From contig CANFTW010000009.1 of assembly GCA_947450025.1 (NCBI GenBank), forward strand, positions 62,001 to 126,000: a stretch of 64,000 nucleotides of DNA, written 5' to 3'. Shown here piece by piece: positions 37,127 through 56,565 of this stretch; the first letter of the stretch is position 1, and each line of letters opens with the position of its first letter. The position numbers were made by a program, and so were the translations under genes. This stretch comes from Bacteroidota bacterium. Its GTDB lineage: Bacteria; Bacteroidota; Bacteroidia; B-17B0; Aurantibacillaceae. The notes beneath the pieces were generated by a model that was not told the DNA's origin, ran no database searches, and was given only the letters and a program-made list of their open reading frames with translations.

Positions 37127-37167
37127 TTTTATTGCTTTATTTTTAGTACAACAATGTTTTTATTAAA

Positions 37168-38199
37168 TTATTTTACTGCGATTGTTTTTACCGTCTTTTG
37201 TTTTGCTATCCAATCGTTATAGTCTTTTTCACTTTCTACGATAATTAACATTCCCATATTGTAGTGAGATGCTCCACAAATCTTGTTACATAATAACTGA
37301 TAATCAAATTCAACAGCTTCTTCTCCTTTTTTAGCACGAGCCTCATTAATTCCTTTCATTAACTGAATAACATAAGGATCTTTTCGCATTTCAGCAGTCG
37401 TTTTGTTTGGAGTAAATTTGAAAGTTGTAACCATACCAGGCACACAATTCATCTGTGCACGGAAATGAGGCATATAGGCTGAGTGAATTACATCACGAGA
37501 GCGCATTTTAAATTCAATTTCTTTTCCTACAGGAATATGGAATTCGTTCTTAATTAAAATATCATCATATCCAGTTGCATCTAGTGTATCTAAACCTACG
37601 TCATTTCCGCCATCTATTTGACGGTAATCTGTTGATCCTAATACTTTATCTTTTCCAGCATAACGAGCGGTCCAATCAAATTGTTTTGCGTAAAGTTCTA
37701 TAGTAACTTTATTAGAATCTTCCGAACGAGCTGTAATGTCATTCCAATACTTTAAACCAAAAATAATAATGAATGCTAATGTTACTGCCGGAACAATTGT
37801 CCAAAGCATTTCTAAGCGGTTATCATGAGCGAAAAACGTTGCTTTAACCCCTTTTTTACCAGCGTATTTGTAAGCAAAGTAAAATAAAAAGGCATTTGTA
37901 ACTACAAATACAAATAAAACTAAGTACATATTGTAATCCCACAAAGCATCAATTTTTAAACCATGAACTGAAGCTGCTCCAGGTAAACTGTTATCACTCC
38001 AACGGTCTATCTGCCAAAATAAAAAACCAATAAAAGCTATGCCAAAAAACAACATAGCTTTTCCGTTAAAGGAGTTGTCACTATCACTTACGCTCCATTC
38101 GTGCCCTTTTTTAAATTGACGCGATAACTCAACGACACGCATTAATTGATGCGCCGCAATGATTAAAAGTACAAGTCCGATTAAGATTAACAATTTCAT
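37168..38199 (-). CDS. Cytochrome c oxidase subunit II
   Basis: A 343-residue membrane protein with a periplasmic cupredoxin domain. The CuA ligands are in LLCNKICGASHYNMGM (two Cys, His, Met), with a further His in VIHSAYMPHFRAQ. Three N-terminal membrane helices are visible (LIGLVLLIIAAHQL, AMLFFGIAFIGFLFW, YLVLFVFVVTNAFLFYF), one more than the classical two. It takes electrons from the ACIII cytochrome and passes them to subunit I. Encoded 103 bp after actF. Confidence 0.94.
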   Translation of the reverse strand: MKLLILIGLVLLIIAAHQLMRVVELSRQFKKGHEWSVSDSDNSFNGKAMLFFGIAFIGFLFWQIDRWSDNSLPGAASVHGLKIDALWDYNMYLVLFVFVVTNAFLFYFAYKYAGKKGVKATFFAHDNRLEMLWTIVPAVTLAFIIIFGLKYWNDITARSEDSNKVTIELYAKQFDWTARYAGKDKVLGSTDYRQIDGGNDVGLDTLDATGYDDILIKNEFHIPVGKEIEFKMRSRDVIHSAYMPHFRAQMNCVPGMVTTFKFTPNKTTAEMRKDPYVIQLMKGINEARAKKGEEAVEFDYQLLCNKICGASHYNMGMLIIVESEKDYNDWIAKQKTVKTIAVK

Positions 38200-38302
38200 A
38201 TCTCGATATTTATTTTTTTAGTTATCCTGTGATGAAATTAGATTTGATTCTAATTTTTTTCACATCAAATAATTTATAGTTCTTTTTTTATGTTTTTATT
38301 AT

Positions 38303-39535
38303 TTAGTATGAATGATGGGCACTTTCTTCCAAGAATGGGTGATTTTTAACCATTAATGGGCGTTTAGAAAGATTAGTTAATACCACATACATAAATAATC
38401 CTAAGAAGAATAAGAAGTTACCTAATTCCATCCAGCTTAATCCAGTCCAATGATGGCCAACCGTACCCGGCATAACAACCATAATAATATCTAAATAGTG
38501 ACCAATGAAGATAATAACACCAACAAACATTAAGAAGAAATAATTTCTCTTAGAGTCACGGCTCATTAACATAATCATTGGGAAAGCAAAGTTTACAAAT
38601 AATACTGTCCACATTAAAGCTTTATAAGATTCCCAACGTGTTTGGAAATAAATAACTTCCTCTGGAATATCAGCATACCATATTAACATGAATTGAGAGA
38701 AGTATAAATATGTCCATAAGAAAGAAATAGCAAACATCCATTTACCAATATCATGAACTGTACTTTCGGTTACAAATTCTAAATAGCCTAATTTTTTTAA
38801 CCAAACAATTAAGATAGTTACAGTGATCATAGCACTAACCCACATACCAGAAAAGATGTACCAACCCATCATTGTTGAGAACCAGTGTGTATCAATACTC
38901 ATAATCCAATCCCAAGCAGAAGTAGAAGATGTTACTGCGAAGACAACCATGAACCAAGCACTTAACTTAACGTTTTTCAAATGATACCCTTTAGATTCTT
39001 CATGTCCTATAGCATCAGCATCCATTGAATTTTTACGTAATTTCCAAGTAAACATCACCCATGCAACCATGTATAAAATTGTACGAATCCACCAAAAAAC
39101 ACCAAAATATCCTATTTTACCTGCAATAACAGCATCGTAATTTTCAGAACCTTCTGTTGCAATTCCATCTGCCATCCAAGGATAAATCGTATTCAGGTGT
39201 AATTGACTACAAATAAATACTAATAATAAAAAAGATAAGCCTACAGGTAAATACCATGTTACAGCTTCAATTACTCTTTTAATAGTAGTTGCCCAACCAG
39301 CCTCAGCAGCATATTGCAAACCTAAAAAGAATGCCGCTGCTAATGCAATTGCCATAAAAAAGAATGATCCAGCAAAAACATTTGCCCAAGCACGCGTTGC
39401 ATGATAATGATGATCATCTGGTTGTTTATCAAACATAAACATACATATGATAGAAACTAAACCAACAGCCATCAAAATCATTGATGTCATTTTTGCTTTA
39501 GCAGGTACTACGAAATTTAATTTATCAGTGTTCAT
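38303..39535 (-). CDS. actF: Alternative complex III subunit ActF (quinol oxidoreductase membrane subunit)
   Basis: A 410-residue multi-spanning protein, about ten helices, with hydrophobic stretches such as MILMAVGLVSIICMF and FFLGLFMYVVLTNLS, and GHHWTGLSWMELGNF near the end. This is ActF of alternative complex III, related to ActC but half its duplicated helices. It anchors the complex and may take part in proton movement. Identification rests on its position after actE and before cox genes as well as the sequence pattern. Confidence 0.9.
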   Translation of the reverse strand: MNTDKLNFVVPAKAKMTSMILMAVGLVSIICMFMFDKQPDDHHYHATRAWANVFAGSFFFMAIALAAAFFLGLQYAAEAGWATTIKRVIEAVTWYLPVGLSFLLLVFICSQLHLNTIYPWMADGIATEGSENYDAVIAGKIGYFGVFWWIRTILYMVAWVMFTWKLRKNSMDADAIGHEESKGYHLKNVKLSAWFMVVFAVTSSTSAWDWIMSIDTHWFSTMMGWYIFSGMWVSAMITVTILIVWLKKLGYLEFVTESTVHDIGKWMFAISFLWTYLYFSQFMLIWYADIPEEVIYFQTRWESYKALMWTVLFVNFAFPMIMLMSRDSKRNYFFLMFVGVIIFIGHYLDIIMVVMPGTVGHHWTGLSWMELGNFLFFLGLFMYVVLTNLSKRPLMVKNHPFLEESAHHSY

Positions 39536-39573
39536 ATTAAAAAATTCTGTCGTATTTAAAAATTCGTTCTTAA

Positions 39574-40206
39574 TTAATGTTTTGTTGAATCTGCAGGAGC
39601 AGCAGTTTTAGTACTATCTGTTGCAACTGTTTTTGGTCCTTGTAATTTTTGTACATAATACACTAATTTCCAACGCTCTTCTTGTGTTAATTGACTAGCA
39701 TGAGAACCCATTGAATTTTTTCCATAAGTAATAGAATGAAAAATTTTCCCTTCTGGCAAATTCTTTAATGGTCCATTGTATGCTGGAGGAGGACCAGGTA
39801 ATTTCGCTCCAACTTTACCGTCACCTGCACCAGTAGCGCCATGACAATGAACACAAAATTTACCATAAATAACTTCACCTTCTTTTTCTACTGCTTCAGA
39901 ATACACAATAGGATTTTTTAAATATAATCCAGCTTGTTCATATCCATCAACTGTATTTGGATAAACATAAGGCATAAATCCTCTTGCTATAGTACCAGCA
40001 ACTGGTAACATAGCATTGTTTAAAGTGTCTCCGTTAATAACGTGGGTTCCGTAATATTCTACAGATGGAGAACGATACATGTCTGGCATAAATTCAAATC
40101 CAGGACTGTTGGCGTCTTTTTTACCACATGATGTAAAACCTGCCACTAACATAACTGCAAATGTACCGCAAGCTACTAGTTTAAGATTTTTGTATGATAA
40201 GTTCAT
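39574..40206 (-). CDS. actE: Alternative complex III subunit ActE (monohaem cytochrome c)
   Basis: A 210-residue lipoprotein (lipobox VAGFTSC) with one c-type haem motif, CVHCH, in GKFCVHCHGATGAGDG, and the Met-region MGSHASQLTQEERW. It is the mobile-like cytochrome of ACIII on the periplasmic side that hands electrons to the CuA domain of the oxidase. Encoded 20 bp after actD. Confidence 0.92.
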   Translation of the reverse strand: MNLSYKNLKLVACGTFAVMLVAGFTSCGKKDANSPGFEFMPDMYRSPSVEYYGTHVINGDTLNNAMLPVAGTIARGFMPYVYPNTVDGYEQAGLYLKNPIVYSEAVEKEGEVIYGKFCVHCHGATGAGDGKVGAKLPGPPPAYNGPLKNLPEGKIFHSITYGKNSMGSHASQLTQEERWKLVYYVQKLQGPKTVATDSTKTAAPADSTKH

Positions 40207-40226
40207 ATCTAAGTGTATTTATCTAA

Positions 40227-40775
40227 TTAATATTTTGGTTCGATTGTGATAGTGCCTTTGTAATTTACTTCTTCTGCTCCAGTAGAACGTAAAATTTCAT
40301 CAGCTTTTTTAGATTGCTCGTCGCTTAACTCTAAATAAATCATGAATTTATCGTCAGTAGTACGAGGATCTGGATTTTTAGCTTTTGCACCTGGAACTAA
40401 CCAGCAACGTAATAAATACGTTAAAGACATCCCATGAGCTGCACAAAAAACTGTAGCTTCAAAACTAATTGGAATAAAGGCAGGGATATTAGTGTAATAT
40501 TCCCAATTTGGTTTACCACCAATATCGTTTGGCCAATCATGAATCATCATGTACCACATCATTAATGTAGCCAAAGATAAGCCCGTAATCCCGTAAATAA
40601 ATGCACAAATAGCAATACGTGTGCGAGGTACACCGACAATTGGATCAATTCCATGCACTGGAAAAGGAGTAAATACATCTTTAATTCGAATACCAGATGC
40701 ACGTAATTTACTGCATGCCTCTAATAAAGGTACTTCGTCTGAATAGATGCCGTGTATAATTTGTTTAGTTGCCAT
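40227..40775 (-). CDS. actD: Alternative complex III subunit ActD (DUF3341)
   Basis: A 182-residue protein with IHGIYSDEVPLLEACSKLRASGI, a ferredoxin-like start, PFPVHGID and two membrane helices (IAICAFIYGITGLSLATLMMW region and PISFEATVFCAAHGM). This is the DUF3341/ActD family, a structural membrane subunit of ACIII. Encoded between actC and actE. Confidence 0.92.
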   Translation of the reverse strand: MATKQIIHGIYSDEVPLLEACSKLRASGIRIKDVFTPFPVHGIDPIVGVPRTRIAICAFIYGITGLSLATLMMWYMMIHDWPNDIGGKPNWEYYTNIPAFIPISFEATVFCAAHGMSLTYLLRCWLVPGAKAKNPDPRTTDDKFMIYLELSDEQSKKADEILRSTGAEEVNYKGTITIEPKY

Positions 40776-40812
40776 ATTATTATTTCTACTAAATTCTAAA
40801 TCTTTTTTCTTA

Positions 40813-42198
40813 TTAGTGGTGAGCGTTTGCTGCTAATTTTTTGTGCTCTTCTCCAGATGCTTTCAAGATTGATTTTAATTCTGCTTGAGCAATTACCGGG
40901 AAAGTACGAGAATACAATAAGAATAAAGTAAAGAACATTCCAATTGTACCTACAAAGATACCCACGTCAATAAATGTTGGAGAGTAAGAGTTCCAAGTAG
41001 ATGGTAAATATGTGCGGCATAACGTTGGAACGATAATTACAAAACGCTCAAACCACATACCGATATTTACTACAATTGATAATACAAATGTAAAAGGAAT
41101 ACTAGTACGCAATTTTTTAAACCAGAATAATTGAGGAGAGATCACGTTACATGTCATCATTGCTGCATAAGACCACCACATTGGACCAGTTGCTCTGTTT
41201 AAGAAAGCGTATTGTTCCCATTCAACACCTGAATACCAAGCAACAAATAACTCTGTTAAATATGCTACACCTACAATTGAACCTGTAACGATAATTACAA
41301 TGTTCATATACTCGATGTGTTTGATTGTAATATACGCTTCTAATTTATAAACTTTTCGAATGATTATCATTAATGTTAATACCATCGCAAATCCTGAGAA
41401 TACCGCCCCAGATACGAAATATGGAGGGAAAATCGTTGTATGCCAACCAGGGACTATTGAAGTAGCAAAGTCAAATGATACAATGGAGTGAACTGAGAAT
41501 ACTAATGGAGTAGATAAACCAGCTAATACTAAAGAAACTTCTTCGAAACGAGACCAGTGACGAACAGAACCACCCCAACCAAATGATAATAAAGCGTATG
41601 CTTTTTTCATACGAGGTTTAACCACTCTATCACGAATCATCGCGAAATCAGGAATTAAACCAATGTACCAGAAAACGATAGATACAGTAGCATATGTTGA
41701 TACCGCAAATACATCCCATAATAATGGAGAGTTAAAGTTAGGCCATAGAGAGCCAAATTGATTTGGTAATGGGAATAACATATAATCTAACCAAGGACGA
41801 CCAGTGTGTAACGTTACGAAAATAGCCGCACACAATACCGCGAAGATTGTCATCGCTTCAGCTGAACGGTTAATTGCCATACGCCATTTTTGACGGAATA
41901 ATAACAATACGGCTGAGATTAATGTACCAGCGTGACCGATACCAATCCACCAAACGAAGTTAGTGATATCCCATGCCCAATCTACACCATTATTAGAACC
42001 CCAAGCTCCAATACCAACGCCAATTGTGTATGATAAACATCCAATACCCCACATGAAAGCTAAAACAGATATAGTAAATAAAACATACCATAATCTGTTT
42101 GCCTTACCTTCAATAGGTGCAATAATATCATCTGTGATGTTTCGGTAAGTTTTATTACCTAAGATCAAAGGCTCTCTTATCTGTGATTCTGCGTGCAT
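40813..42198 (-). CDS. actC: Alternative complex III subunit ActC (NrfD/PsrC-like)
   Basis: A 461-residue integral membrane protein of the NrfD/PsrC family with about ten helices, which forms the menaquinol-binding side. Visible are DWAWDITNFVWWIGIGHAGTLISAVLLL, FVTLHTGRPW, and the long soluble N-terminus RNITDDIIAPIEG. It follows actB by 44 bp. Confidence 0.94.
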   Translation of the reverse strand: MHAESQIREPLILGNKTYRNITDDIIAPIEGKANRLWYVLFTISVLAFMWGIGCLSYTIGVGIGAWGSNNGVDWAWDITNFVWWIGIGHAGTLISAVLLLFRQKWRMAINRSAEAMTIFAVLCAAIFVTLHTGRPWLDYMLFPLPNQFGSLWPNFNSPLLWDVFAVSTYATVSIVFWYIGLIPDFAMIRDRVVKPRMKKAYALLSFGWGGSVRHWSRFEEVSLVLAGLSTPLVFSVHSIVSFDFATSIVPGWHTTIFPPYFVSGAVFSGFAMVLTLMIIIRKVYKLEAYITIKHIEYMNIVIIVTGSIVGVAYLTELFVAWYSGVEWEQYAFLNRATGPMWWSYAAMMTCNVISPQLFWFKKLRTSIPFTFVLSIVVNIGMWFERFVIIVPTLCRTYLPSTWNSYSPTFIDVGIFVGTIGMFFTLFLLYSRTFPVIAQAELKSILKASGEEHKKLAANAHH

Positions 42199-42242
42199 AT
42201 TATTTTAAATTCAGAATTTATACTTTAATTTTTTACTATTTA

Positions 42243-45200
42243 TTATGAATGATGCTCTTCTTTATGTCCTTCTTCAGAATGAGCTGCAGGTTTTGCCGCT
42301 GCGTGTTCAGCATGATGAATAGCTTCTTCTTGGTTTCTAACTTTTAATAAGTAAGAAACTGTTGGTTTAACTCCTACCTCTTCTAATAAGAAATAGTTTT
42401 TATCATCATTTCTCCATGTTGCAATTTCCGAAGCTTCATCATTAATGTCACCAAACATAATCGCGTTTGTAGGACAAGCTTGTTGACATGCTGTTTTAAT
42501 TGACCCATCAACTAATGGAGCTCCTGCTTTTTTGGCAACTAATTTACCTGCTTGTAAACGTTGTTGACACATTGAACATTTCTCCATTACACCACGAGAA
42601 CGAACTACTACGTCTGGGTTTAACACCATACGTCCTAAATCTTGTTGTGCAGGGTTGATATCTGTGAATTTATCGTTTTCGATATAATTAAACCAATTGA
42701 AACGACGAACTTTGAAAGGACAGTTGTTAGCACAGTAACGAGTACCAATACAACGATTATAAGTCATCATATTTAACCCTTCTGAACTATGAGATGTAGC
42801 TAATACTGGACAAACATTCTCACAAGGAGCATGATTACAATGTTGGCACATCATCGGTTGGAAAGTTACCTTCGGATTTAAAGAAGGGTTCTCCATGTCT
42901 AAGTACATTTGCATTGCTCCAACATGTTCTTCAGAAGCTTTTTCTTTAGTCATGTCAGATGTATAGTAACGATCAATACGTAACCAATGCATTTCACGAG
43001 TTCTACTAACTTCTTCTTTTCCTACAACGTGAACGTTGTTTTCTACAGTACAAGCTACAACGCAAGCCGCGCAACCAATACAAGAAGTCATATCAATCGT
43101 TAATCCCCATTTATGTCCTAAACGCTCAAATGAACCATATAAATCTACTTCACTTACATGTTTTTCTCCACCACCATGCATTGGTAACATCGCAGCTGGA
43201 TTCCAAACATCTTTTTCTTTAGATTTATATTCGTTTAAAGAAACTTCACGTAATAAATATTCTTCACGACCCATAATCGTATGGTGAATTTGAGTCGCTG
43301 CAAATTTATGAACATCGCTTGTTTTAGTAACAGTAGCAGATAAACTTACATTTTGTAATGTATCATTAGATACTGTAACAAAAGGATAAGCATTAACCCC
43401 AATTCCAAAGGCTACTTTCATTGTTTCTGCTGAACGACCATAACCAACAGCTAAACCAATCGTACCAGCTGTTTGACCTGGTTGAGGATAAACAGGAACT
43501 TTAATTGTTACGCCATTAACTGTTAAATCAACAATTGACCCAATGATATCTTGACGTTTCATTTCATGTAATCCTAAAGCAGCAACATCTGCTGGATTCA
43601 TGGTAATATAATTATCCCAAGTTACTTTAGAAATAGGATCAGGTAATTCCATTAACCATGGGTTATTACTTTGATTTCCATTTCCTAAACCAACTTTTTC
43701 ATAAACTACTAATTCAAATTGACCTCCTTTTGCAGAAGTTGCTAAAGCAGCTGCTTTATTATAATCAGGAGTTGGTAAAGAAGAAACAACCTCAGCTACC
43801 ACCCTATGATTTGGCGCAGGGGCTACATGATGTGCAACTGGAGCGGCAACTACATGAGCAGTATCCACTAATGATTCAGCAGTAATTGCTGCTACACCCG
43901 CCATTAATGGCTTGCCTGTAGAATCTTTAGCCATTGGTGCAATCACAACATCTTTTAAAACAGACACTTTTAATACACCATCATGCAAAGTATGGGCCCA
44001 GAAAGAAGCGAAATCTAAATATTTACCTTGTTGAGGGAAAATATGATTATTCCAGTAACCTTGTAAGTAAGTTAAATAATCAGCTTTAATTCCGGACCAT
44101 TTTAACAATGTATCTTGTACTTGGCGAGTTCCTTCATAACGAGGAGCTGCAAAGATTTGATTGATTGTTGGTTGTTGTAATGAATAATGACCGCGTTTTG
44201 GATTTGCATCACCCCAAGACTCTAAGAAGTTATTGTCTGGACAAACGTAATCAGCTAATAAAGCAGTTTCATCTAATGTTTGAGAGAAAGAGATTTTTAC
44301 ACCTGCTTTTTTATAGGCTGCTTCAAATTTTAAAGATGCAGGCGCTGTATAAACTGGGTTACAGTTGTAAGTCATTAACGTACCAACTTTACCAGCATTT
44401 AAATCGGCTACTAAATCTAAAAATACTTTATCGTCACCTTGTTTTAAATTGTAGTGCATTTCTACATCTACAGTTTTTCCATAGTTATCTAACATTTTAT
44501 TAATGCCGTTTACCAATGTTTGGCAACCTTCATCATTAAAACCACAAACTACAATTGATTTTCCTTTATTTTCAACTAATTCTTTAGCCGCTTTAACAAT
44601 TGCTTTAGCTGCATCAGGATTAGAAACTTTAGCGTCAGAAACTTTTGAATTACCCGTTGCACCTGCCACTTCATTAAATAAAGAAGCAATCACTTTACCA
44701 AACTCAGATGCCTTAACCATGTAACGCTCATCAGCATTAGCACCTGTTAAAGATAAATTAGCCTCGAAATGATAGTGTTTACTCATTTCTAAGTTCTCGC
44801 GGTTAACTTTACGAGTTTTGCTGTATTGATTAGCAAATTCAATTGGGTTTAACCATGTTCCTAAGAAATCACAAGCAACACCTATAATCGTTTTTGCTTT
44901 TGAGAAATCATAAGAAGAAACAACAGATTTACCAAATACATTTCTGTTAGCTTTGATTAATCCTGAATAAGAAACGGCATCATAAGTAACATGTTTCGTA
45001 TTAGGGTATTTAGCAGTAAATTCAGCAATCACAGCCTTAGTAGAAGGACTAATAATTGTTGAACTTAAAATTACATTTGTTCCAGTTGTTAATGATTTAG
45101 CGACAGCATCGTCTACATTTTTCCATGTAGTAGGCTCACCTTTAGCTAATGGTCCGTTTAAACGAGCCCCATCATATAAGCTTAATACTGAAGATTGAAC

Positions 45201-45638
45201 ACGAGCGCTAGTAGCACCATGAAATACAGAAGATTGAACATTAATGAAAGCATCGCTCTGACTTTCTTTTGATAAATTATTTCCTTCAATTTTGATAGGA
45301 CGGCCTTCGCGTGTTTTAACTAAAACAGCGGCGTAATCGTGTCCATCATAAAATGTAGAAGCATAGAAATTAGCTACACCAGGTGTAACCTCTTCTGGTT
45401 TTACTACATAAGGAATAGATTTGTTGACAGGTGTTTCGCAGGCTGCCAAAGCAACGGCTGCTGTAGAGAAGCCCATTACTTTTAAGAAATCTCTACGGCT
45501 TGTACCTTTAGAGTTTGAATCATCACCAGTAAGGAATTCTTCCATTGGCAATTGTTCAGCAAACTCATTGTTTTTGTTTTGTAAAAAGTCTTCGCTGTTG
45601 TTTAGTTCAGGTAAACCTTTCCAGTATTTTTTCGACAT
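42243..45638 (-). CDS. actB: Alternative complex III subunit ActB (iron-sulphur/molybdopterin-like fusion)
   Basis: A protein of about 1131 residues. Near the N-terminus SRRDFLKVMGF is a Tat signal, ending ALAAC, so it is a Tat-exported lipoprotein. Residues to about 760 resemble a molybdopterin oxidoreductase that in ACIII has lost its cofactor. The C-terminal part holds four Fe-S sites: CIGCAACVVAC, CQHCNHAPCENVCP, CIGTRYCANNCP and CSMCQQ with CQQACP. The tail is His/Ala/Glu-rich. It passes electrons from quinol to the ActA haems. ATG at 45638 or two codons earlier; both plausible. Confidence 0.95.
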   Translation of the reverse strand: MSKKYWKGLPELNNSEDFLQNKNNEFAEQLPMEEFLTGDDSNSKGTSRRDFLKVMGFSTAAVALAACETPVNKSIPYVVKPEEVTPGVANFYASTFYDGHDYAAVLVKTREGRPIKIEGNNLSKESQSDAFINVQSSVFHGATSARVQSSVLSLYDGARLNGPLAKGEPTTWKNVDDAVAKSLTTGTNVILSSTIISPSTKAVIAEFTAKYPNTKHVTYDAVSYSGLIKANRNVFGKSVVSSYDFSKAKTIIGVACDFLGTWLNPIEFANQYSKTRKVNRENLEMSKHYHFEANLSLTGANADERYMVKASEFGKVIASLFNEVAGATGNSKVSDAKVSNPDAAKAIVKAAKELVENKGKSIVVCGFNDEGCQTLVNGINKMLDNYGKTVDVEMHYNLKQGDDKVFLDLVADLNAGKVGTLMTYNCNPVYTAPASLKFEAAYKKAGVKISFSQTLDETALLADYVCPDNNFLESWGDANPKRGHYSLQQPTINQIFAAPRYEGTRQVQDTLLKWSGIKADYLTYLQGYWNNHIFPQQGKYLDFASFWAHTLHDGVLKVSVLKDVVIAPMAKDSTGKPLMAGVAAITAESLVDTAHVVAAPVAHHVAPAPNHRVVAEVVSSLPTPDYNKAAALATSAKGGQFELVVYEKVGLGNGNQSNNPWLMELPDPISKVTWDNYITMNPADVAALGLHEMKRQDIIGSIVDLTVNGVTIKVPVYPQPGQTAGTIGLAVGYGRSAETMKVAFGIGVNAYPFVTVSNDTLQNVSLSATVTKTSDVHKFAATQIHHTIMGREEYLLREVSLNEYKSKEKDVWNPAAMLPMHGGGEKHVSEVDLYGSFERLGHKWGLTIDMTSCIGCAACVVACTVENNVHVVGKEEVSRTREMHWLRIDRYYTSDMTKEKASEEHVGAMQMYLDMENPSLNPKVTFQPMMCQHCNHAPCENVCPVLATSHSSEGLNMMTYNRCIGTRYCANNCPFKVRRFNWFNYIENDKFTDINPAQQDLGRMVLNPDVVVRSRGVMEKCSMCQQRLQAGKLVAKKAGAPLVDGSIKTACQQACPTNAIMFGDINDEASEIATWRNDDKNYFLLEEVGVKPTVSYLLKVRNQEEAIHHAEHAAAKPAAHSEEGHKEEHHS

Positions 45639-45679
45639 AGTCATCTGTGATATTTCTTGTAATTACCGGTTTCTAACAA

Positions 45680-46948
45680 TTAATAGTGACACTTAGCACA
45701 TTCAAGTCCTCCGATTTTATCAACCGTAAACTTAACGTCATATTGTCCTTTATATTTCTCTTTTAAAGCTTTGTGTAATCGATCGTAGTATGGATTACCT
45801 TCCATCGCTACTTCAGTTTTTCTGTGACACTCAATACACCATTTCATGGTTAAAGGTGTTTTTTGTTCAACAGTTGTCATTTTCTTAACATCTCCGTGAC
45901 AAGAAGCACATTCTTGTTTACCAACTACAACGTGTTGAGAGTGGTTAAAATAAACGTGATCAGGTAATGTGTGAACTTTAATCCATTTGATTGGATTTTG
46001 AGGATTAGTATAGTTACCTGTTTTTGGATCGAAACCAGAAGCTGCATAAATTTTTGCAATTTCTTTTTCTCCATATTGAGGTCCTGTTTGAATTCCTTTG
46101 TGACAATTCATACAAACATTAACTGTAGGAATACCTGCGTGACGAGATTTTTCTACTGAGTTGTGGCAATATTGACAAGCAATTTCATTATCACCTGCAT
46201 GTAATTTATGTGAGAATTTAATTGGTTGCTCAGGTAAATATCCTTTTTGAGTTTCCCAATCATAATAAACACCTAAGTCATAACAAGCATCCCAACAAGA
46301 TTTCATCCCGCCGAACGTAATTAAAATAACAAAGACACCTACTAAACGACGGTGGCCTCCAATCCATTGTTTTACTTCTTGACCAAAAGTTAATTCTTCT
46401 GATTCCTCTTTTCCTTCTTTTCGGTTATATGAATTTTGTAAAGAATGACGTACACTTCTTAAAGCTCCTAAAACAATTGCTAAAATAACAATAGCTCCTA
46501 GTAATAAATATAATGGGTCAATTCCACCTTTTTCTTCTTCAACTACATCGCCAGCAACAGGTGCTTTTGCAACATCTGCTTTTGGAGCTGGTGGCGCTTT
46601 CACATATTCAATTAACGCTTTTAAATCAGCATCTGATAAAAACTCAAACTCGCTCATGGCATCTACACCGCCATTTGCTGCTACTAAAGATTTTGCATAA
46701 GCATCGCCAGAAGCAATAACTTTGTTATTGTTTTTTATCCATGCCGTTAACCATTCGTCTACCGGCTTAGGAACTCTACCAGCAACACCTGCTAAACCAG
46801 GGCCTGTTAACTTTTGATCGGTTAATGAGTGACAAACGGCACAGTTTTGCTTAAATATTTTAGCACCATCTTGAGCTTTCAATCCAAAAGAGAAAGCAAA
46901 AAATAGAAAAACCGCGCCAAATAAGGATTTTAAAGAGAAATGAGACAT
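45680..46948 (-). CDS. actA: Alternative complex III subunit ActA, six-haem cytochrome c
   Basis: About 422 residues from ATG 46948 (signal peptide MSHFSLKSLFGAVFLFF, ending LKAQ). ATG 46960 is an alternative; the longer frame to 47023 lies at or before the likely transcription start. Six CxxCH motifs are present: CAVCH in an N-terminal class I cytochrome domain (FKQNCAVCHSL), then a membrane helix (PLYLLLGAIVILAIVLGALR), another (LVGVFVILITFGGMK), and CQYCH, CMNCH, CASCH, CIECH and CAKCH in the C-terminal pentahaem part. The best known ActA proteins carry the five C-terminal haems, so the N-terminal cytochrome domain is an extra. First gene of the locus. Confidence 0.93.
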   Translation of the reverse strand: MSHFSLKSLFGAVFLFFAFSFGLKAQDGAKIFKQNCAVCHSLTDQKLTGPGLAGVAGRVPKPVDEWLTAWIKNNNKVIASGDAYAKSLVAANGGVDAMSEFEFLSDADLKALIEYVKAPPAPKADVAKAPVAGDVVEEEKGGIDPLYLLLGAIVILAIVLGALRSVRHSLQNSYNRKEGKEESEELTFGQEVKQWIGGHRRLVGVFVILITFGGMKSCWDACYDLGVYYDWETQKGYLPEQPIKFSHKLHAGDNEIACQYCHNSVEKSRHAGIPTVNVCMNCHKGIQTGPQYGEKEIAKIYAASGFDPKTGNYTNPQNPIKWIKVHTLPDHVYFNHSQHVVVGKQECASCHGDVKKMTTVEQKTPLTMKWCIECHRKTEVAMEGNPYYDRLHKALKEKYKGQYDVKFTVDKIGGLECAKCHY

Positions 46949-47027
46949 ATTATTATGCATAGAATTATATCTAATTTTGTGTATGTTATGGCTGTTTAAT
47001 GACACTTTAATGACAAAAATCACCGTG

Positions 47028-50822: not shown

Positions 50823-52145
50823 ATGCAAAAAACAAGTTTGTTTTGGTTTAGAAGAGATTTACGCTTAGATGATAATGCCGGACTTTATTATGCCCTTAAA
50901 AAAGGGCTGCCAGTTTTACCTATTTTTATTTTTGATAAAACCATACTCGATAAATTAGAAATAAAAAAAGATGGTCGTGTAGAATTTATTCATCAAGCTA
51001 TTTTAAATTTAAATGAACAGTTAAAAGAGTTAGGCTCTTCCATTAAAGTATTTTATTCAAGTCCGGAAAATGTTTTTAAAGAATTAGTAAAAGAATATAC
51101 TATATCTGCTGTATACACCAACCACGATTACGAGCCTTATGCCGATGAACGAGACACATCAATTAGAGATTTTTTAAGTAAACATAAAATTGAATTTAAA
51201 AGCTACAAGGATCAATGTGTTTTTGAGAAAAATGAGGTCACTAAAGATGATGGAAAACCATATACGGTATTTACGCCTTATAGCAGAAAATGGAAATTAC
51301 GTCTAACGGATTTTCATGTAAAGGCCTATCCAAATAAAAAATATTTTGCAATTTTTTTAAAAACAAAATCGTTTGTTATTCCTTCCTTAAAAGAATTAGG
51401 TTTTGAGACCTCTGGATTAGAATTTCCATCTACAACTATTAGTAAATCAATTGTTACTAATTATAAAGAACAGCGTGATTTCCCTGCTATTAAAGGAACT
51501 AGTAAATTAAGTGTGCATTTGCGTTTTGGCACAGTAAGCATTAGAGCCTTAGCAAAACAAGCTTTATCATTAAACGAAACTTGGCTGAATGAATTAATTT
51601 GGAGAGATTTTTATATGATGATTTTATATCATTTCCCTCATGCCGCTAAAAATTCTTTCAAGCCTCAATATGATAGGATTGTATGGAGGAATAATGAACA
51701 TGAATTTAAAGCTTGGTGTGAAGGCAAAACAGGATTTCCGATTGTAGATGCTGGTATGCGCGAATTAAACGCCACTGGCTTTATGCACAATAGAGTACGC
51801 ATGATTGTAGCCAGTTTTTTAGTGAAAGATTTGCTCATTGATTGGCGATGGGGCGAAGCCTATTTTTCGCAAAAATTATTGGACTTTGATTTGAGTGCTA
51901 ATAATGGCGGTTGGCAATGGGCTGCTGGCAGTGGTTGCGACGCAGCCCCTTACTTTAGAGTGTTTAATCCAACAGAACAAACTAAAAAATTTGATCCTAA
52001 ATATGAGTATATCAAAACATGGGTTCCAGAATTCAATACACCACATTACGTTAAGCCAATAGTTGATCATTCGGCGGCACGGCTAAGAGTGCTATCAGTA
52101 TATAAACAAGCTCTTACTGAAAATAAACAAACTACGTTGTTTTAG
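50823..52145 (+). CDS. Deoxyribodipyrimidine photolyase (class I)
   Basis: A 440-residue flavoprotein that repairs cyclobutane pyrimidine dimers with blue light. It starts LFWFRRDLRLDDNAGL; the FAD domain shows LNELIWRDFYMMILYHFP, GFPIVDAGMRELNATGFMHNR and LDFDLSANNGGWQWAAGSGCDAAPYFRVFNP in pieces, all typical class I blocks. A cryptochrome role cannot be excluded. Its last 14 bp overlap the convergent histidine kinase gene. It is divergent from hutU with an 80 bp gap. Confidence 0.92.
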   Translation: MQKTSLFWFRRDLRLDDNAGLYYALKKGLPVLPIFIFDKTILDKLEIKKDGRVEFIHQAILNLNEQLKELGSSIKVFYSSPENVFKELVKEYTISAVYTNHDYEPYADERDTSIRDFLSKHKIEFKSYKDQCVFEKNEVTKDDGKPYTVFTPYSRKWKLRLTDFHVKAYPNKKYFAIFLKTKSFVIPSLKELGFETSGLEFPSTTISKSIVTNYKEQRDFPAIKGTSKLSVHLRFGTVSIRALAKQALSLNETWLNELIWRDFYMMILYHFPHAAKNSFKPQYDRIVWRNNEHEFKAWCEGKTGFPIVDAGMRELNATGFMHNRVRMIVASFLVKDLLIDWRWGEAYFSQKLLDFDLSANNGGWQWAAGSGCDAAPYFRVFNPTEQTKKFDPKYEYIKTWVPEFNTPHYVKPIVDHSAARLRVLSVYKQALTENKQTTLF

Positions 52146-53409
52146 AACCTTTATTAAAATCAATTGCTACTACATGCCGTTCATTACTATAAGTATAAGT
52201 AATACTGTAGTCGTAATATTCAACTATTTTTTTAACAATAGACAATCCAAGACCTAATGATTGATTTTGATTTTGACTATGAAATCTCTCAAAATATTTT
52301 TCTGTAGGGTCTTTAGGAACTATACCTGTATTTGAAACACTAAACAAGCCGTTATTAGTTGTTATTAAAATTTGCCCATTTTGAATATTGTGCTGAATGG
52401 CATTCTTTAAAACATTATCAATTAATATTTCGGACAAGGACTCTTTCATAAAAAAAGGAATCTCTTCAGATATATCTTTAACAACAGATATATTTTTCTT
52501 TTGAATGAAGTCTGAAAAATAATGTAAACGCTGTTCTATTAAAATTGAGAGATTAATATTTATAGGATTATTGAATTGTTTATTGTCTAATTTTGATAGA
52601 AGGTTTAACCCTTTATTAATATTAAATAATTTATTGACATATTTTGATGCTTCTGATAATAATAAGGCTTGTTCATTGCTCAAGTTTTCATCTTGAAGAC
52701 ATCGTTCAATTTTAGAATTGATAACAGCTAATGGAGTTTGTATTTCGTGAGTAATGTTTTCAGTAAATTCTTTTACAGAGGTGAAATCTGAAATCATCTT
52801 TTCTGACATCTTACTAATTTCTTCACTTAAAATTGCAAACTCATAGGTGTTTGTTTTGGGTGGTGAAATTTTCTGTAATTGATGAACAGAAAAATTTTTG
52901 ATATCCTTTATCAACTGATAAATAGGGGAAAACAATTTATAATACACAAACACATTAACAATTACCAAAATAAATAGCATAAAAAATATAGACACAAAAA
53001 TAATTGCAGATAGGCTACCCATTAGGCCTTCATCTTCATCAATTGTTTTTGTGATTGACACTCTGTAATTTTTTTGATTTTGTGTGACATCAAAAATGAT
53101 TTTTTTGGATGTAAATTCTTCTTCTTCCCACTTTTCTTCTATTTTAATTTCATCGATAATTGGAGTTTTATATTGTAAAGTTTGGATTGGAGTAATTTCT
53201 AAAACGTCTCCGATATTATGTTTAAAATAATCAATATTTACTCCTCTTTTTAGTTGATTGTTCATGTACATCCTCTCTAGATATAAATGTTCAACGGTTT
53301 CTTTTTCCATTTTATACTTTAGAAAAAAATACAAGGAAGACTCGCCGAGTAAAAGGACACAAACAGAAATAATCGTGTTAATTAAAATATTTTTATAAAC
53401 AAATTTCAT
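52132..53409 (-). CDS. Sensor histidine kinase (HisKA type)
   Basis: A 425-residue inner-membrane kinase. Two membrane helices (IISVCVLLLGESSLYFF and IIFVSIFFMLFILVIVNVFVYY) flank a periplasmic sensor of about 110 residues. The phospho-acceptor His is in FTENITHEIQTPLAVIN, and the ATPase has DNVLKNAIQHN, FSVSNTGIVPKD and SLGLGLSIVKKI. It follows its response regulator by 18 bp. The signal is unknown; the divergent operon at 54295 is the obvious candidate target. Confidence 0.93.
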   Translation of the reverse strand: MKFVYKNILINTIISVCVLLLGESSLYFFLKYKMEKETVEHLYLERMYMNNQLKRGVNIDYFKHNIGDVLEITPIQTLQYKTPIIDEIKIEEKWEEEEFTSKKIIFDVTQNQKNYRVSITKTIDEDEGLMGSLSAIIFVSIFFMLFILVIVNVFVYYKLFSPIYQLIKDIKNFSVHQLQKISPPKTNTYEFAILSEEISKMSEKMISDFTSVKEFTENITHEIQTPLAVINSKIERCLQDENLSNEQALLLSEASKYVNKLFNINKGLNLLSKLDNKQFNNPININLSILIEQRLHYFSDFIQKKNISVVKDISEEIPFFMKESLSEILIDNVLKNAIQHNIQNGQILITTNNGLFSVSNTGIVPKDPTEKYFERFHSQNQNQSLGLGLSIVKKIVEYYDYSITYTYSNERHVVAIDFNKGSKTT

Positions 53410-53427: not shown

Positions 53428-54102
53428 TTAAAGATCAAATTTATATCCAATTCCATATACAGATTTGATATAATCTTTTGAATTTGAGACAAATAATTTC
53501 TTTCTCAAATTTTTGACGTGAGTATAAATAATTTCATTTGAAACGTCCATGTCGGCATGGTAATTCCAAACAGTGTAGCCTATCGCTTCCTTTGTAATGA
53601 CTTTACCAGCATTAGAAATAAAAAATAATAATAATTCGTATTCTTTAGATGTTAAAGTTATGGGGTTATTCGAAACAGTAACTAATAACTTAGCAGTATC
53701 TACTTTAATCTCATGATATTCAAGTACATTATCTCCTTGATGATAATGTCTTCGAACTAACGCTTTGACGCGAGCGTTTAATTCTGATAAATGAAAAGGT
53801 TTGGTTAAAAAATCATCGGCTCCAGCTTCAAGTGCTTTAATTCTCATGTCGAGTTCATTAACTGCAGAAAGTACAATAATTCCTGAACTAATTTTTTTCT
53901 TTTTAATATGCTGAATTAAATCAACGCCATGTCCATCAGGTAATTTTAAATCCAATAATAAAACCGCAAACTCATATTCATTTAATGATGTTAGCGCAGC
54001 ATGATATGAATTGACAACCTTGCAATTGTATTTAAAATCTGATAAATAGTTTTCAATTTCTAGAGCTAAATCAACCTCATCTTCAACGATTAAAATATTC
54101 AT
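53428..54102 (-). CDS. Response regulator, OmpR/PhoB family
   Basis: A 224-residue two-domain regulator. The receiver has the acidic pair E7-D8, the phospho-acceptor D51 in LLLDLKLPDGHG, the Ser in IIVLSAV and the Lys in FLTKPFHLSEL. The C-terminal winged helix has LTSKEYELLLFFISNAG and VKNLRKKLF, ending SVYGIGYKF. Paired with the kinase downstream, and transcribed away from the cytochrome/DUF5777 operon across a 192 bp gap. Confidence 0.95.
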   Translation of the reverse strand: MNILIVEDEVDLALEIENYLSDFKYNCKVVNSYHAALTSLNEYEFAVLLLDLKLPDGHGVDLIQHIKKKKISSGIIVLSAVNELDMRIKALEAGADDFLTKPFHLSELNARVKALVRRHYHQGDNVLEYHEIKVDTAKLLVTVSNNPITLTSKEYELLLFFISNAGKVITKEAIGYTVWNYHADMDVSNEIIYTHVKNLRKKLFVSNSKDYIKSVYGIGYKFDL

Positions 54103-54294: not shown

Positions 54295-54681
54295 ATGAAA
54301 CTACTATTTTGCTCTAAAACAGTAAATACTTTGAGCATTTTTGTCACTAGTACTTTTTTACTTAGTTCCTGTAAACACAAAACCAATTTTAATGAACTAT
54401 CAGAAGTCAGATATTCGAAGGATATTGCGCCTATCATTAGTTCTAATTGTTCAGCAGCAGGATGTCATGGCACTATTGAGTATGAAAAATTATCATTAGT
54501 AACTTATGAAGATTTAATGAAAGGTGGCGTTTCAGCAGGTTCTCCAGAAAAAAGTAAATTATACCGTACGCTAACTAGTTATGGAGACGATATCATGCCT
54601 AAAAAACCATTTAATGAATTAACTGAGCGTCAAATTCAATTAATTTATGTTTGGATCGGTCAAGGAGCTAAAAACAACTAA
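54295..54681 (+). CDS. Cytochrome c-like lipoprotein with CX4CH motif
   Basis: A 128-residue lipoprotein (lipobox FLLSSC26). The haem-type region reads APIISSNCSAAGCHGTIEYEKL: two Cys separated by four residues, then His, instead of CxxCH. The rest (SPEKSKLYRTL, DDIMPKKPFNELTERQIQLIYVWIGQGA) matches planctomycete-type cytochrome c domains, including the Met in the IMP motif and the C-terminal helix. Haem attachment is therefore plausible but unproven. First of a four-gene operon (gaps 18, 8 and 13 bp) divergent from a two-component system. Confidence 0.75.
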   Translation: MKLLFCSKTVNTLSIFVTSTFLLSSCKHKTNFNELSEVRYSKDIAPIISSNCSAAGCHGTIEYEKLSLVTYEDLMKGGVSAGSPEKSKLYRTLTSYGDDIMPKKPFNELTERQIQLIYVWIGQGAKNN

Positions 54682-54699
54682 TCTATATTATTTAAATTT

Positions 54700-55095
54700 A
54701 TGAAAAAAATACAATTATCTATTTTATCAGTTTCAACCGCTTTGTTTTTGAGCAGTTGTTACTATGACAATTTTAAAGAATTGCATCCTGATAGTGCGCT
54801 AAGCAATAATGGTTGCGATACAACAGGCGTGATAAGTTATTCTGCACAAATTGTTCCAGCTCTTCACAATTCATGTACGAGTAGCTGCCATAACGGTACA
54901 GGAAGCGGACATGATATGACAACCTGGTCAGCCGTTAATTTTGATGCCGTAGACCCAGGTGGAAGTAAATTAGTTGGGAGTGTTATTTGGGATGGGGTTG
55001 CTCAGCAAATGCCTCAAGGTGGTACTTCAAAAATTTCAGATTGTGATATTACAAAAATTAAAAAATGGGTAGCTGCAGGTGCTCCTAACAACTAA
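54700..55095 (+). CDS. Cytochrome c-like lipoprotein with CX3CH motif
   Basis: A 131-residue lipoprotein (lipobox ALFLSSC). The haem-type region is PALHNSCTSSCHNGTGSG, with three residues between the Cys, again not CxxCH. Then comes LVGSVIWDGVAQQMPQGG and a final helix TKIKKWVAAGA, as in the previous gene, with which it appears related. Two extra Cys (NNGCDTT, SDCDIT) are present and could form a disulphide. Probably a partner of the first lipoprotein; electron transfer role inferred. Confidence 0.7.
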   Translation: MKKIQLSILSVSTALFLSSCYYDNFKELHPDSALSNNGCDTTGVISYSAQIVPALHNSCTSSCHNGTGSGHDMTTWSAVNFDAVDPGGSKLVGSVIWDGVAQQMPQGGTSKISDCDITKIKKWVAAGAPNN

Positions 55096-55103
55096 TAACT
55101 ATT

Positions 55104-56009
55104 ATGAAAAAAATTATATTATCTCTATCTTTAATGATGTGTGGGTCAACTGCTTTTTTTGCTCAGAGCCCAGATGATTTATTAAACATGGTTTCTGAGA
55201 AACCTAAAAAAGAATATGTCACCGCTACATTTAAAACAACACGTTTAATCAACTTCCACACTGTTGAAGTACTTAGTAAGCGCAGCTTAGATTTTAGAAT
55301 TTCTCACCGTTTTGGTGATTTTAACTCAGGCGCATACAATGCTTGGGGTGTTGATGGAGGAGCAAACATTCGTCTAGCACTTGAATATTGCCATGGAAGT
55401 CGTTTAATGTTTGGGGTAGGAAGAACATCAGGCAAAAAAATTGCTGATGGATTTTTAAAATACCGTTTATTAAAACAAACAACTAAAGGCGGAGGTATGC
55501 CTGTGAGTGTGACCTTATTTACCAGCGTTTACCACACCTTTATGCAAAATGTATTGATTAATGGTGAAAACAAATATCAAAAAATTCCAGATAGATTATC
55601 ATACTGTCATCAAATTATGATTGGAAGAAAATTCAATTCTCGTTTTTCTTTTCAATTAACTGGTGCTATGGTACACTTCAATTTAGTAGATAAAATCACT
55701 GACAAAAACGATTGTTTTATTGTGGGGGCTGTTACTCGTTTTAAATTTGCTAAGCGTCAAGCAATTACCTTAGAATATGGTTATAGATTAAATAAATACA
55801 GCAAAGATAAATATTATGACAGTTTTGGCATAGGATATGATTTAGAAACAGGTGGGCATGTATTTCAAGTTCACTTAACTAACTCATTTGGATTAACCGA
55901 AGATCAATATTTTATGTATACTAACACATCATGGGATAATTGGGGAATTCGTTTAGGATTTAACATCTCACGTGTCTTTAGCTTACAAGGAAAAAACAAT
56001 GTAGAATAA
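55104..56009 (+). CDS. DUF5777 beta-barrel protein
   Basis: A 301-residue protein with a signal peptide (LMMCGSTAFFAQS) and beta-barrel-like strands: VEVLSKRSLDFRISHRFGDF, GANIRLALEYC, SVTLFTSVYHT, AITLEYGYRLN, and a Phe-rich C-terminal region (IRLGFNISRVFSL). This is the DUF5777 pattern, outer-membrane barrel proteins found next to c-type lipoproteins and YceI in Bacteroidota. Function unknown. Confidence 0.8.
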   Translation: MKKIILSLSLMMCGSTAFFAQSPDDLLNMVSEKPKKEYVTATFKTTRLINFHTVEVLSKRSLDFRISHRFGDFNSGAYNAWGVDGGANIRLALEYCHGSRLMFGVGRTSGKKIADGFLKYRLLKQTTKGGGMPVSVTLFTSVYHTFMQNVLINGENKYQKIPDRLSYCHQIMIGRKFNSRFSFQLTGAMVHFNLVDKITDKNDCFIVGAVTRFKFAKRQAITLEYGYRLNKYSKDKYYDSFGIGYDLETGGHVFQVHLTNSFGLTEDQYFMYTNTSWDNWGIRLGFNISRVFSLQGKNNVE

Positions 56010-56022
56010 TAAAAAAACAAAT

Positions 56023-56565
56023 ATGAAAAAAATATTAGCAATAGGATTAGTAGCATTTAGCTTAAACAGTTTTTCTCAAATTTATGTAGGGGAAAAATGT
56101 AAAATTTCATTTTTTAGTGAAACTAAAATGGAAAACATTGATGCCATTAATACGGTAACAAAACCAGTATTTAATGCTAAAACAGGTGATTTTGCAATTA
56201 AAGCACAACAAAGTGCTTTTGTTTTTAAATCAGCTTTTATGCAAGAGCATTACAACGAGAATTATGTGGAAAGTGAAAAATTTCCATATGCAACGTTTAA
56301 AGGAAAAGTAAAAGAAACTATTGATTACAGTAAAGACGGAACCTATAATGTAACGATGGTTGGCACCTTAGACATGCACGGTGTAGAATTGCCAAGAACC
56401 ATTACAGGAACAATCACGATTAAAAGCGGCACCATTACAATGGATTCTAAATTTGATGTAAAAGTTGCTGACCATAAAATCAAAGTACCATCTTTGTATG
56501 TAGAAAAAATTGCTGAAAACATTCAAGTAACATTTCATACAGACATGGTGGTATTAAAAAAATAA
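56023..56565 (+). CDS. YceI family exported protein
   Basis: A 180-residue lipocalin-like protein with a signal peptide (IGLVAFSLNSFSQI). YceI blocks are FKSAFMQEHYNENYVESEKFPYATF, GTLDMHGVELPRTITGT and DHKIKVP. YceI proteins bind isoprenoid lipids in the periplasm. Last gene of the operon with the odd haem lipoproteins and the barrel; together they may handle a lipid or quinone-like ligand, which is inference. Confidence 0.9.
   Translation: MKKILAIGLVAFSLNSFSQIYVGEKCKISFFSETKMENIDAINTVTKPVFNAKTGDFAIKAQQSAFVFKSAFMQEHYNENYVESEKFPYATFKGKVKETIDYSKDGTYNVTMVGTLDMHGVELPRTITGTITIKSGTITMDSKFDVKVADHKIKVPSLYVEKIAENIQVTFHTDMVVLKK

Follow-up and report, generated by a model that had tools for sequence, protein, structure and literature searches.

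Two open reading frames, ORF1 (positions 54295 to 54681; 128 aa) and ORF2 (positions 54700 to 55095; 131 aa), lie on the plus strand of the stretch of Bacteroidota DNA analyzed here (64,000 nucleotides; hereafter, the window) and are separated by a gap of 18 bp. Both are predicted lipoproteins, with a hydrophobic N terminus that ends in a lipobox-like Ser-Ser-Cys as judged by eye, and both are predicted to be class I mono-haem cytochromes c. ORF1 carries the haem-attachment motif CSAAGCH (54448 to 54468, plus strand; Cys52, Cys57, and His58 in the context N-C-S-A-A-G-C-H-G), in which four residues separate the cysteines (CX4CH), and ORF2 carries CTSSCH (54874 to 54891, plus strand; Cys59, Cys63, and His64 in the context S-C-T-S-S-C-H-N-G), in which the cysteines are three residues apart (CX3CH). 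These motifs are exactly those reported in the original prediction made on this DNA, and the canonical CXXCH spacing is absent from both proteins. The C-terminal half of each protein contains a Met-Pro pair, namely, Met101-Pro102 in ORF1 (54595 to 54600, plus strand) and Met104-Pro105 in ORF2 (55009 to 55014, plus strand), which by analogy with class I cytochromes c is predicted to provide the distal haem ligand. ORF2 has in addition Cys39 (54814 to 54816) and Cys115 (55042 to 55044, both plus strand), which are separate from the haem cysteines and are predicted to form a structural disulphide. When the residues of each protein were shuffled (20,000 shuffles), a C-X2..6-CH pattern arose by chance in 0.6% of cases for ORF1 and in 2.2% for ORF2; since shuffling rarely yields such a pattern and relatives retain the motif residues, the motifs are not due to chance. 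A sequencing or frameshift artefact was also considered and excluded, as the reading frames are open throughout and the motif lengths are common to several species.

ORF1 and ORF2 head a run of four genes on the same strand. Directly downstream are the genes for a DUF5777 outer-membrane beta-barrel protein (55104 to 56009, plus strand; PF19089, E 2.8e-82, 276.1 bits for a cut-off of 23.1) and, next to it, for a YceI-domain protein (56023 to 56565, plus strand; PF04264, E 4.9e-10). A literature search on the name DUF5777 returned no paper. Divergent from this operon are the genes for an OmpR-type response regulator (53428 to 54102, minus strand; PF00072 and PF00486), which, to judge from its position, possibly regulates the cytochrome operon, and for a sensor histidine kinase (52132 to 53409, minus strand). 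The NCBIfam model nearest to this kinase is PorY (NF052314, E 2.3e-102), with 343.2 bits for a cut-off of 350; PorY is linked to type IX secretion by the name of the model.

Homologues were collected with two queries. ORF2 was searched against 60 genomes, including the window's own, and a match at E <= 0.001 was obtained in 52 of them; of these matches, only loci L001 and L003 to L031 entered the analysis. The DUF5777 barrel was chosen as the second query since its retrieval is independent of the haem motif; it has at least 586 relatives, of which the best 80 loci were kept. Profiles of ORF1 and ORF2 then identified 193 family domains in the fetched loci, 65 of the ORF1 type and 128 of the ORF2 type. 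None of the 193 lacks a C-Xn-CH motif, a count obtained with profiles that were built from motif-bearing seeds and are biased toward motif-bearing members. All 65 ORF1-type domains were aligned (alignment A2). One family domain of fewer than 80 aa was left out of the alignments, and 83 of the remaining 127 ORF2-type domains form alignment A3; the 44 omitted are mostly CX2CH domains at the C terminus of proteins with two or three motifs, with a few outliers, and include three CX4CH domains (L022, L097, and L108).

At least one domain of the two cytochrome families was detected by the profiles in 59 of the 80 DUF5777 loci, and the 21 loci without any include some short contigs. BLAST clustering of the neighbours in the 80 loci, with one representative scanned for each of the YceI, OB-fold, and Rieske clusters, recovered YceI proteins in 57 loci, the cytochromes in 56, and a Rieske protein in 10. 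The operon of cytochromes, DUF5777 barrel, and YceI protein is found widely among the fetched Bacteroidota loci. These cytochromes are absent from 9 of the 10 Rieske loci (L046, L054, L061, L063, L066, L080, L094, L095, L104, and L105, of which the protein of L105 was scanned). Because the neighbours recur and the Rieske loci mostly do without the cytochromes, the gene order points to the cytochromes and the Rieske protein as putative interchangeable electron carriers in an envelope redox module. A tRNA_anti-like OB-fold protein (PF12869) is a further recurrent member of the DUF5777 operon (34 of the 80 loci, e.g., L085:263-667). The Dyadobacter Rieske loci L061, L066, and L095 are situated near two-component genes and near genes that we take to be of the RND-efflux type; the regulators of L095, the ones scanned, are nearest to heavy-metal models, below the cut-offs.

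The distance between the two cysteines forms a series. Among the 65 ORF1-type domains, 62 have CX4, 2 have CX2, and 1 has CX6; in the domains sampled, CX4CH in ORF1 is the family rule and no peculiarity of the window genome. ORF1 relatives are often fused proteins in which one or more CX4CH domains are followed by a CX2CH domain, resulting in two- and three-motif proteins. The ORF2 type is more varied: the 83 domains of A3 comprise 57 with CX2, 11 with CX3, 8 with CX4, 2 with CX5, 4 with CX6, and 1 with CX9, and the corresponding numbers for all 128 domains are 99, 11, 11, 2, 4, and 1. Canonical CXXCH forms, the presence of which in homologues bears on the original prediction, were thus found in 57 of 83 ORF2-type and 2 of 65 ORF1-type aligned domains. 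In the genus of the window, ORF2 relatives have either CX3CH (the window and L003 to L008) or CX2CH (L009 to L011), and the tandem proteins of two congeners (L015 and L021) combine one CX2CH copy with one CX3CH copy. Hymenobacter ginkgonis HMF4947 (L074) also carries a CX3CH relative. Longer spacings in ORF2 relatives are CX5CH (L012), CX6CH (L013), and, as a single example, CX9CH (L025). This last relative (L025:1501-1905) reads CGISGTQAASCH and has the longest spacing observed. On a tree of the ORF2 relatives, calculated by a quick method with the motif columns excluded, a minimum of 12 switches from or to CX2 and 15 spacing changes are required, both numbers being approximate since the tree is poorly resolved (43 of 80 inner branches open on 123 columns).

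The residues around this variable distance are fixed. Pro46, Cys52, Cys57, His58, Met101, Pro102, Trp120, and Gly124 are invariant in the 65 ORF1-type sequences, and the lipobox Cys20, Cys59, Cys63, His64, Met104, and Pro105 are invariant in the 83 ORF2-type sequences, so that both motif cysteines, the histidine, and the distal Met-Pro are retained in all 148 aligned domains. Of the full set of 193 domains, a single one lacks Met-Pro, namely, the divergent L022 domain, which is not part of A3. Cys39 and Cys115 of ORF2 are both present in 77 of the 83 sequences and both absent in 4, with one of them absent in 2; this co-variation is as expected for a structural disulphide, which the pair would form. 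Seven of eight cytochrome pairs have dN/dS values of 0.08 to 0.29, and the eighth is saturated; judged from these ratios, the cytochrome pairs are under purifying selection. Taken together, the invariant columns, the Cys39/Cys115 pattern, and the dN/dS values indicate that the presumed haem ligands are constrained and that the inter-cysteine distance is far less so: the presumed haem-binding residues are all kept while spacing varies widely among relatives. The original prediction had named free variation of homologues at the Cys positions as a sign against it; the cysteines are invariant in the aligned domains, and only the distance between them varies.

Assignment of the pair to a protein class relied on several approaches. 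In a Pfam scan, neither ORF1 nor ORF2 reached a cytochrome family at the cut-off, the best matches below it being PF13442 for ORF2 (E 0.0069) and PccH for ORF1 (E 0.18). An NCBIfam lipoprotein model, LIC11213, was matched by ORF1 with 25.2 bits and by L036 with 26.1 bits, below its cut-off of 100. The description of the proteins as planctomycete-type in the original prediction holds for relatives and not for the pair itself: PSCyt1 (PF07635), the planctomycete cytochrome c model, was above cut-off in all three fused ORF1-type homologues scanned (L016, L051, and L052), whereas it gave no match at E<1 with ORF1 or ORF2. AlphaFold2 models, calculated without haem, had a mean pLDDT of 89.7 for ORF1 and 86.0 for ORF2. 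When these were compared with known structures using VIA-align, the ORF1 model matched FoxE (Z 10.2), the hydrazine synthase alpha subunit (Z 7.8), and, in the fourth row, PccH (Z 7.7), and the top match of the ORF2 model was PccH, with a Z of 7.3 that lies in the range termed common by the tool. Foldseek gave no match at E <= 0.001 (best E 0.054 and 1.8 for the models of the pair). Sequence searches of the PDB with the single proteins gave weak matches only, and profiles performed better: the ORF1 profile matched FoxE at 1e-8 (best single stretch 3.2e-5) and hydrazine synthase alpha at 3.5e-5 (best stretch 0.0029), and the ORF2 profile matched cytochrome c6 at 4.5e-6. Because the Foldseek E-values are not significant, the fold assignment rests on the VIA-align Z scores, the profile matches, and the models, which argue for a predicted class I cytochrome c fold well in the case of ORF1 (Z 10.2) and moderately in that of ORF2 (Z 7.3).

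The best structural match to ORF1, FoxE, is a putative iron oxidase of Rhodobacter ferrooxidans SW2 (PDB 5mab/5mvo), and the alignment has an rmsd of 2.5 over 90 residues with 30% identity. According to the profile match, the Met-Pro pair and a C-terminal WI..GA segment are common to both proteins. FoxE carries two haems. It differs from the pair in having 291 residues with two matched stretches, whereas ORF1 (128 aa) and ORF2 (131 aa) have one motif each, and in the aligned haem segment it has CTTCH where ORF1 has CX4CH. The likeness is one of structure and sequence; iron oxidation is no part of the match. PccH of Geobacter sulfurreducens (PDB 4rlr), the structural match of both ORFs, is described as mono-haem, and its motif, CAGCH, is two residues shorter than that of ORF1 in the aligned segment.

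Information on how such motifs might be matured comes from the maturation genes. The window genome, rated 99.96% complete, contains one maturation cluster, in which the genes for CcmB, a CcmC-like protein, CcmE, and a CcmF-like protein all exceed the Pfam cut-offs; with NCBIfam models, CcmC was below the cut-off, and the CcmF ORF was nearest to NrfE-type models, also below their cut-offs. Its CcmE (L115) ends in CPSKY. The second cytochrome c maturation set that the original prediction had suggested looking for was not found with PF01578, PF03100, PF05140, and PF03918 in this genome or in 12 relatives. These 13 genomes were chosen to include carriers of CX2, CX3, CX5, and CX6 motifs. CcmE occurs once in each of 12 of them and was not found in G028, a CX5 carrier that is 93% complete. 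PF01578 had two matches in each of the same number of genomes and one in G028, with an extra match in none; in the window genome, the two are CcmC and CcmF of one cluster, and elsewhere they are so judged from position and length, with only CcmF turning up in G028. ResB (PF05140) was not found above the cut-off in any of the 13 genomes, and matches below it in the window genome and in G010 fall on an 870-codon frame, which is the length of the CcmF frame. CcmH (PF03918, E <= 0.001) was found neither in these 13 genomes nor in 29 further relatives, the control genomes being positive, and CcmE was found in 26 of the 29. A CPSKY-type CcmE without CcmH is thus present in 38 of the 42 genomes, including the window's, and the remaining four yielded no CcmE; the CPSKY motif was read by script in 37 of these CcmE proteins and by eye in one (L152). 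The CX4 carriers G040 and G044 each have one CcmE and no CcmH according to the CcmE and CcmH searches, and the presence of a single maturation set was checked for carriers of CX2, CX3, and CX6. CcmH turned up in no genome of the 42, so that the spacings were compared solely among genomes in which CcmH was not found.

This gene content resembles that of System I* of Desulfovibrio and archaea, the features of which are given in the parts of PMC3601427 consulted: CcmE has CXXXY instead of HXXXY, as in System I*, its CPSKY being described there as the most frequent version of the System I* motif, and no CcmH was found, a trait of some System I* members and in keeping with the statement that System I* operates without CcmH and CcmG. 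The taxa named in the same parts are delta-proteobacteria, Chloroflexi, and Firmicutes, whereas the relatives analyzed here are Bacteroidota. ResB/CcsB, a feature of System II, was not detected above the cut-off in the 13 genomes searched. The Ccm set thus looks like System I*, which would make it unusual in comparison with E. coli and normal for these bacteria, because a CPSKY-type CcmE without CcmH is found in so large a part of the genomes. The original prediction had offered an unusual maturation system as one of two explanations; a System I*-like set is indeed there, but it is the ordinary state in 38 of 42 genomes and is accompanied by no second set. A literature search that joined Bacteroidetes, CcmE, CcmF, CcmH, and System I returned no paper.

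We consider it probable, at roughly 77%, that ORF1 and ORF2 are true haem-carrying cytochromes c with one haem each and that a System I* tolerant of different spacings matures them. In this reading, which draws on the motifs, their conservation, the predicted fold, gene order, and maturation gene content, the two would be lipid-anchored, His/Met-ligated class I cytochromes c, their haem still anchored by two cysteines and CH despite gaps of four and three residues. The CX4CH of ORF1 would be an old feature of its family. In ORF2, where most relatives have CX2CH, the motif would have grown to CX3CH in a particular lineage. The one System I*-like set of the genome (CPSKY-type CcmE, CcmF, and no CcmH) would mature both and accept different motif lengths; as one maturation set coexists with mixed motif lengths in a genome, it would serve several lengths if the odd motifs are matured. 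The pair would pass electrons in an envelope redox module with the DUF5777 outer-membrane barrel and the YceI protein. A wider proposal, to which we give somewhat less than even odds, is that a single CcmH-less System I* in the Bacteroidota attaches haem whatever the motif length, at least over the range CX2CH to CX6CH, that a maturase without CcmH ignores the inter-cysteine distance, and that spacing has consequently been free to drift and has done so repeatedly, both within one cytochrome family and among proteins of a genome that are unrelated to it.

The original prediction had also raised loss of haem with retention of a redox disulphide, and a cysteine pair serving as such a disulphide or as a metal site would agree with a motif that deviates from CXXCH and with the failure of both ORFs to reach a Pfam cytochrome cut-off. 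However, the histidine and the distal Met-Pro, which would be dispensable in a protein that uses the cysteines solely as a disulphide, are invariant in the 148 aligned domains, and canonical members occur in the same family (57 of 83) and even within the same polypeptide, as in the tandem proteins L015 and L021. ORF2, moreover, has its separate co-varying Cys39 and Cys115 for a predicted structural disulphide. Haem loss is therefore unsupported, and we regard it as very unlikely. Retention of haem through a single thioether is a less distant alternative, although still an unlikely one: the haem would be held by the Cys of CH, and the first Cys, too far away, would be free or oxidised. Single-thioether cytochromes exist, and it is in line with this possibility that CH and Met stay constant across inter-cysteine gaps of 2 to 9 residues. 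Against it, both Cys are equally invariant, in 65 of 65 ORF1-type and 83 of 83 ORF2-type aligned domains, a degree of conservation that a free first Cys would not need, and some multihaem cytochromes have CX4CH motifs that bind haem by two thioethers.

Least probable of all is a dedicated, unrecognised haem lyase for the odd motifs. There are precedents, as the parts consulted of PMC10663686, PMC12285233, and PMC3601427 describe dedicated synthases for the rare motifs CXXCK (NrfEFG) and CX15CH (CcsA1), but the 13 genomes searched contain no extra PF01578 match and no ResB above the cut-off, searches that a lyase of an unrelated family would escape. Furthermore, S. oneidensis is reported, in the part of PMC12285233 consulted, to have neither nrfEFG nor a dedicated lyase for its NrfA, and it appears to handle CXXCK without a dedicated synthase.

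The proposed tolerance of a CcmH-less System I* for variable spacing is a testable idea. The motifs are real and the kind of protein is ordinary; what is of interest is the pattern of spacing. Neither CX3CH nor CX4CH is new in itself, because genome surveys already count them (PMC5566968 and PMC10734462), and a third counts CXnCH with n from 2 to 5 (PMC12545173), as far as the parts consulted show. Atypical CX3CH motifs are likewise described, in the part of PMC6295460 consulted, for ImcH homologues and for two CymA homologues of R. ferrireducens. Those proteins carry several haems, whereas the motifs of ORF1 and ORF2 are in predicted mono-haem lipoproteins and their spacing forms a series within one family. 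Our literature searches found neither such a series within one mono-haem family nor a test of System I* on one, and among the listed papers on CXXXXCH and cytochrome c3, titles and abstract openings gave no experimental maturation of CX4CH. Reviews of cytochrome c biogenesis take CXXCH as the recognition unit (parts of PMC10663686 and PMC3601427), and System I is said to recognise little beyond it; the consulted parts of PMC3601427 do not mention the motif-length tolerance of System I*. One family with differing motif lengths and one maturation set found offers a natural test series for substrate recognition by haem lyases, and the same series bears on what CcmH contributes. Genome surveys restricted to CXXCH would overlook such cytochromes.

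Other haem-type motifs were identified in the window genome. PF13442, a model that favours CXXCH, has 11 matches at E <= 0.1, of which ten have CXXCH and the eleventh is ORF2. A protein sorted by the type IX secretion system (T9SS; G000:C11:1258-2052, or L164:1258-2055) contains CGNSTCH, a CX4CH motif, and its congener in L005 (113-910) is 69% identical and has CX2CH. In an alignment of eight sequences of this T9SS-sorted protein, seven with CX2CH and one with CX4CH, both cysteines and the histidine are invariant, and among the members found in barrel loci, that of L052 has CX4 and three others CX2. The CX2CH form adjoins the cytochrome operon in some relatives (L005, L012, and L025 were scanned), and the window orthologue lies away from it. 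As the named domain of the protein is choice_anch_V, it is only a candidate for a haem role. The same genome encodes an NHL/propeller-like protein of 488 aa (L137:1336-2799, on G000:C1) that has a further CX4CH motif, CATPGCH. Within the window itself, a respiratory gene block (35306 to 46960, minus strand), presumably an alternative complex III beside an oxidase, encodes a cytochrome with six CXXCH motifs (45680 to 46960) and another with one (39574 to 40206), together with a 1133-aa molybdopterin/Fe-S-like protein and a DsrP-like membrane protein, with model matches mostly below the cut-offs.
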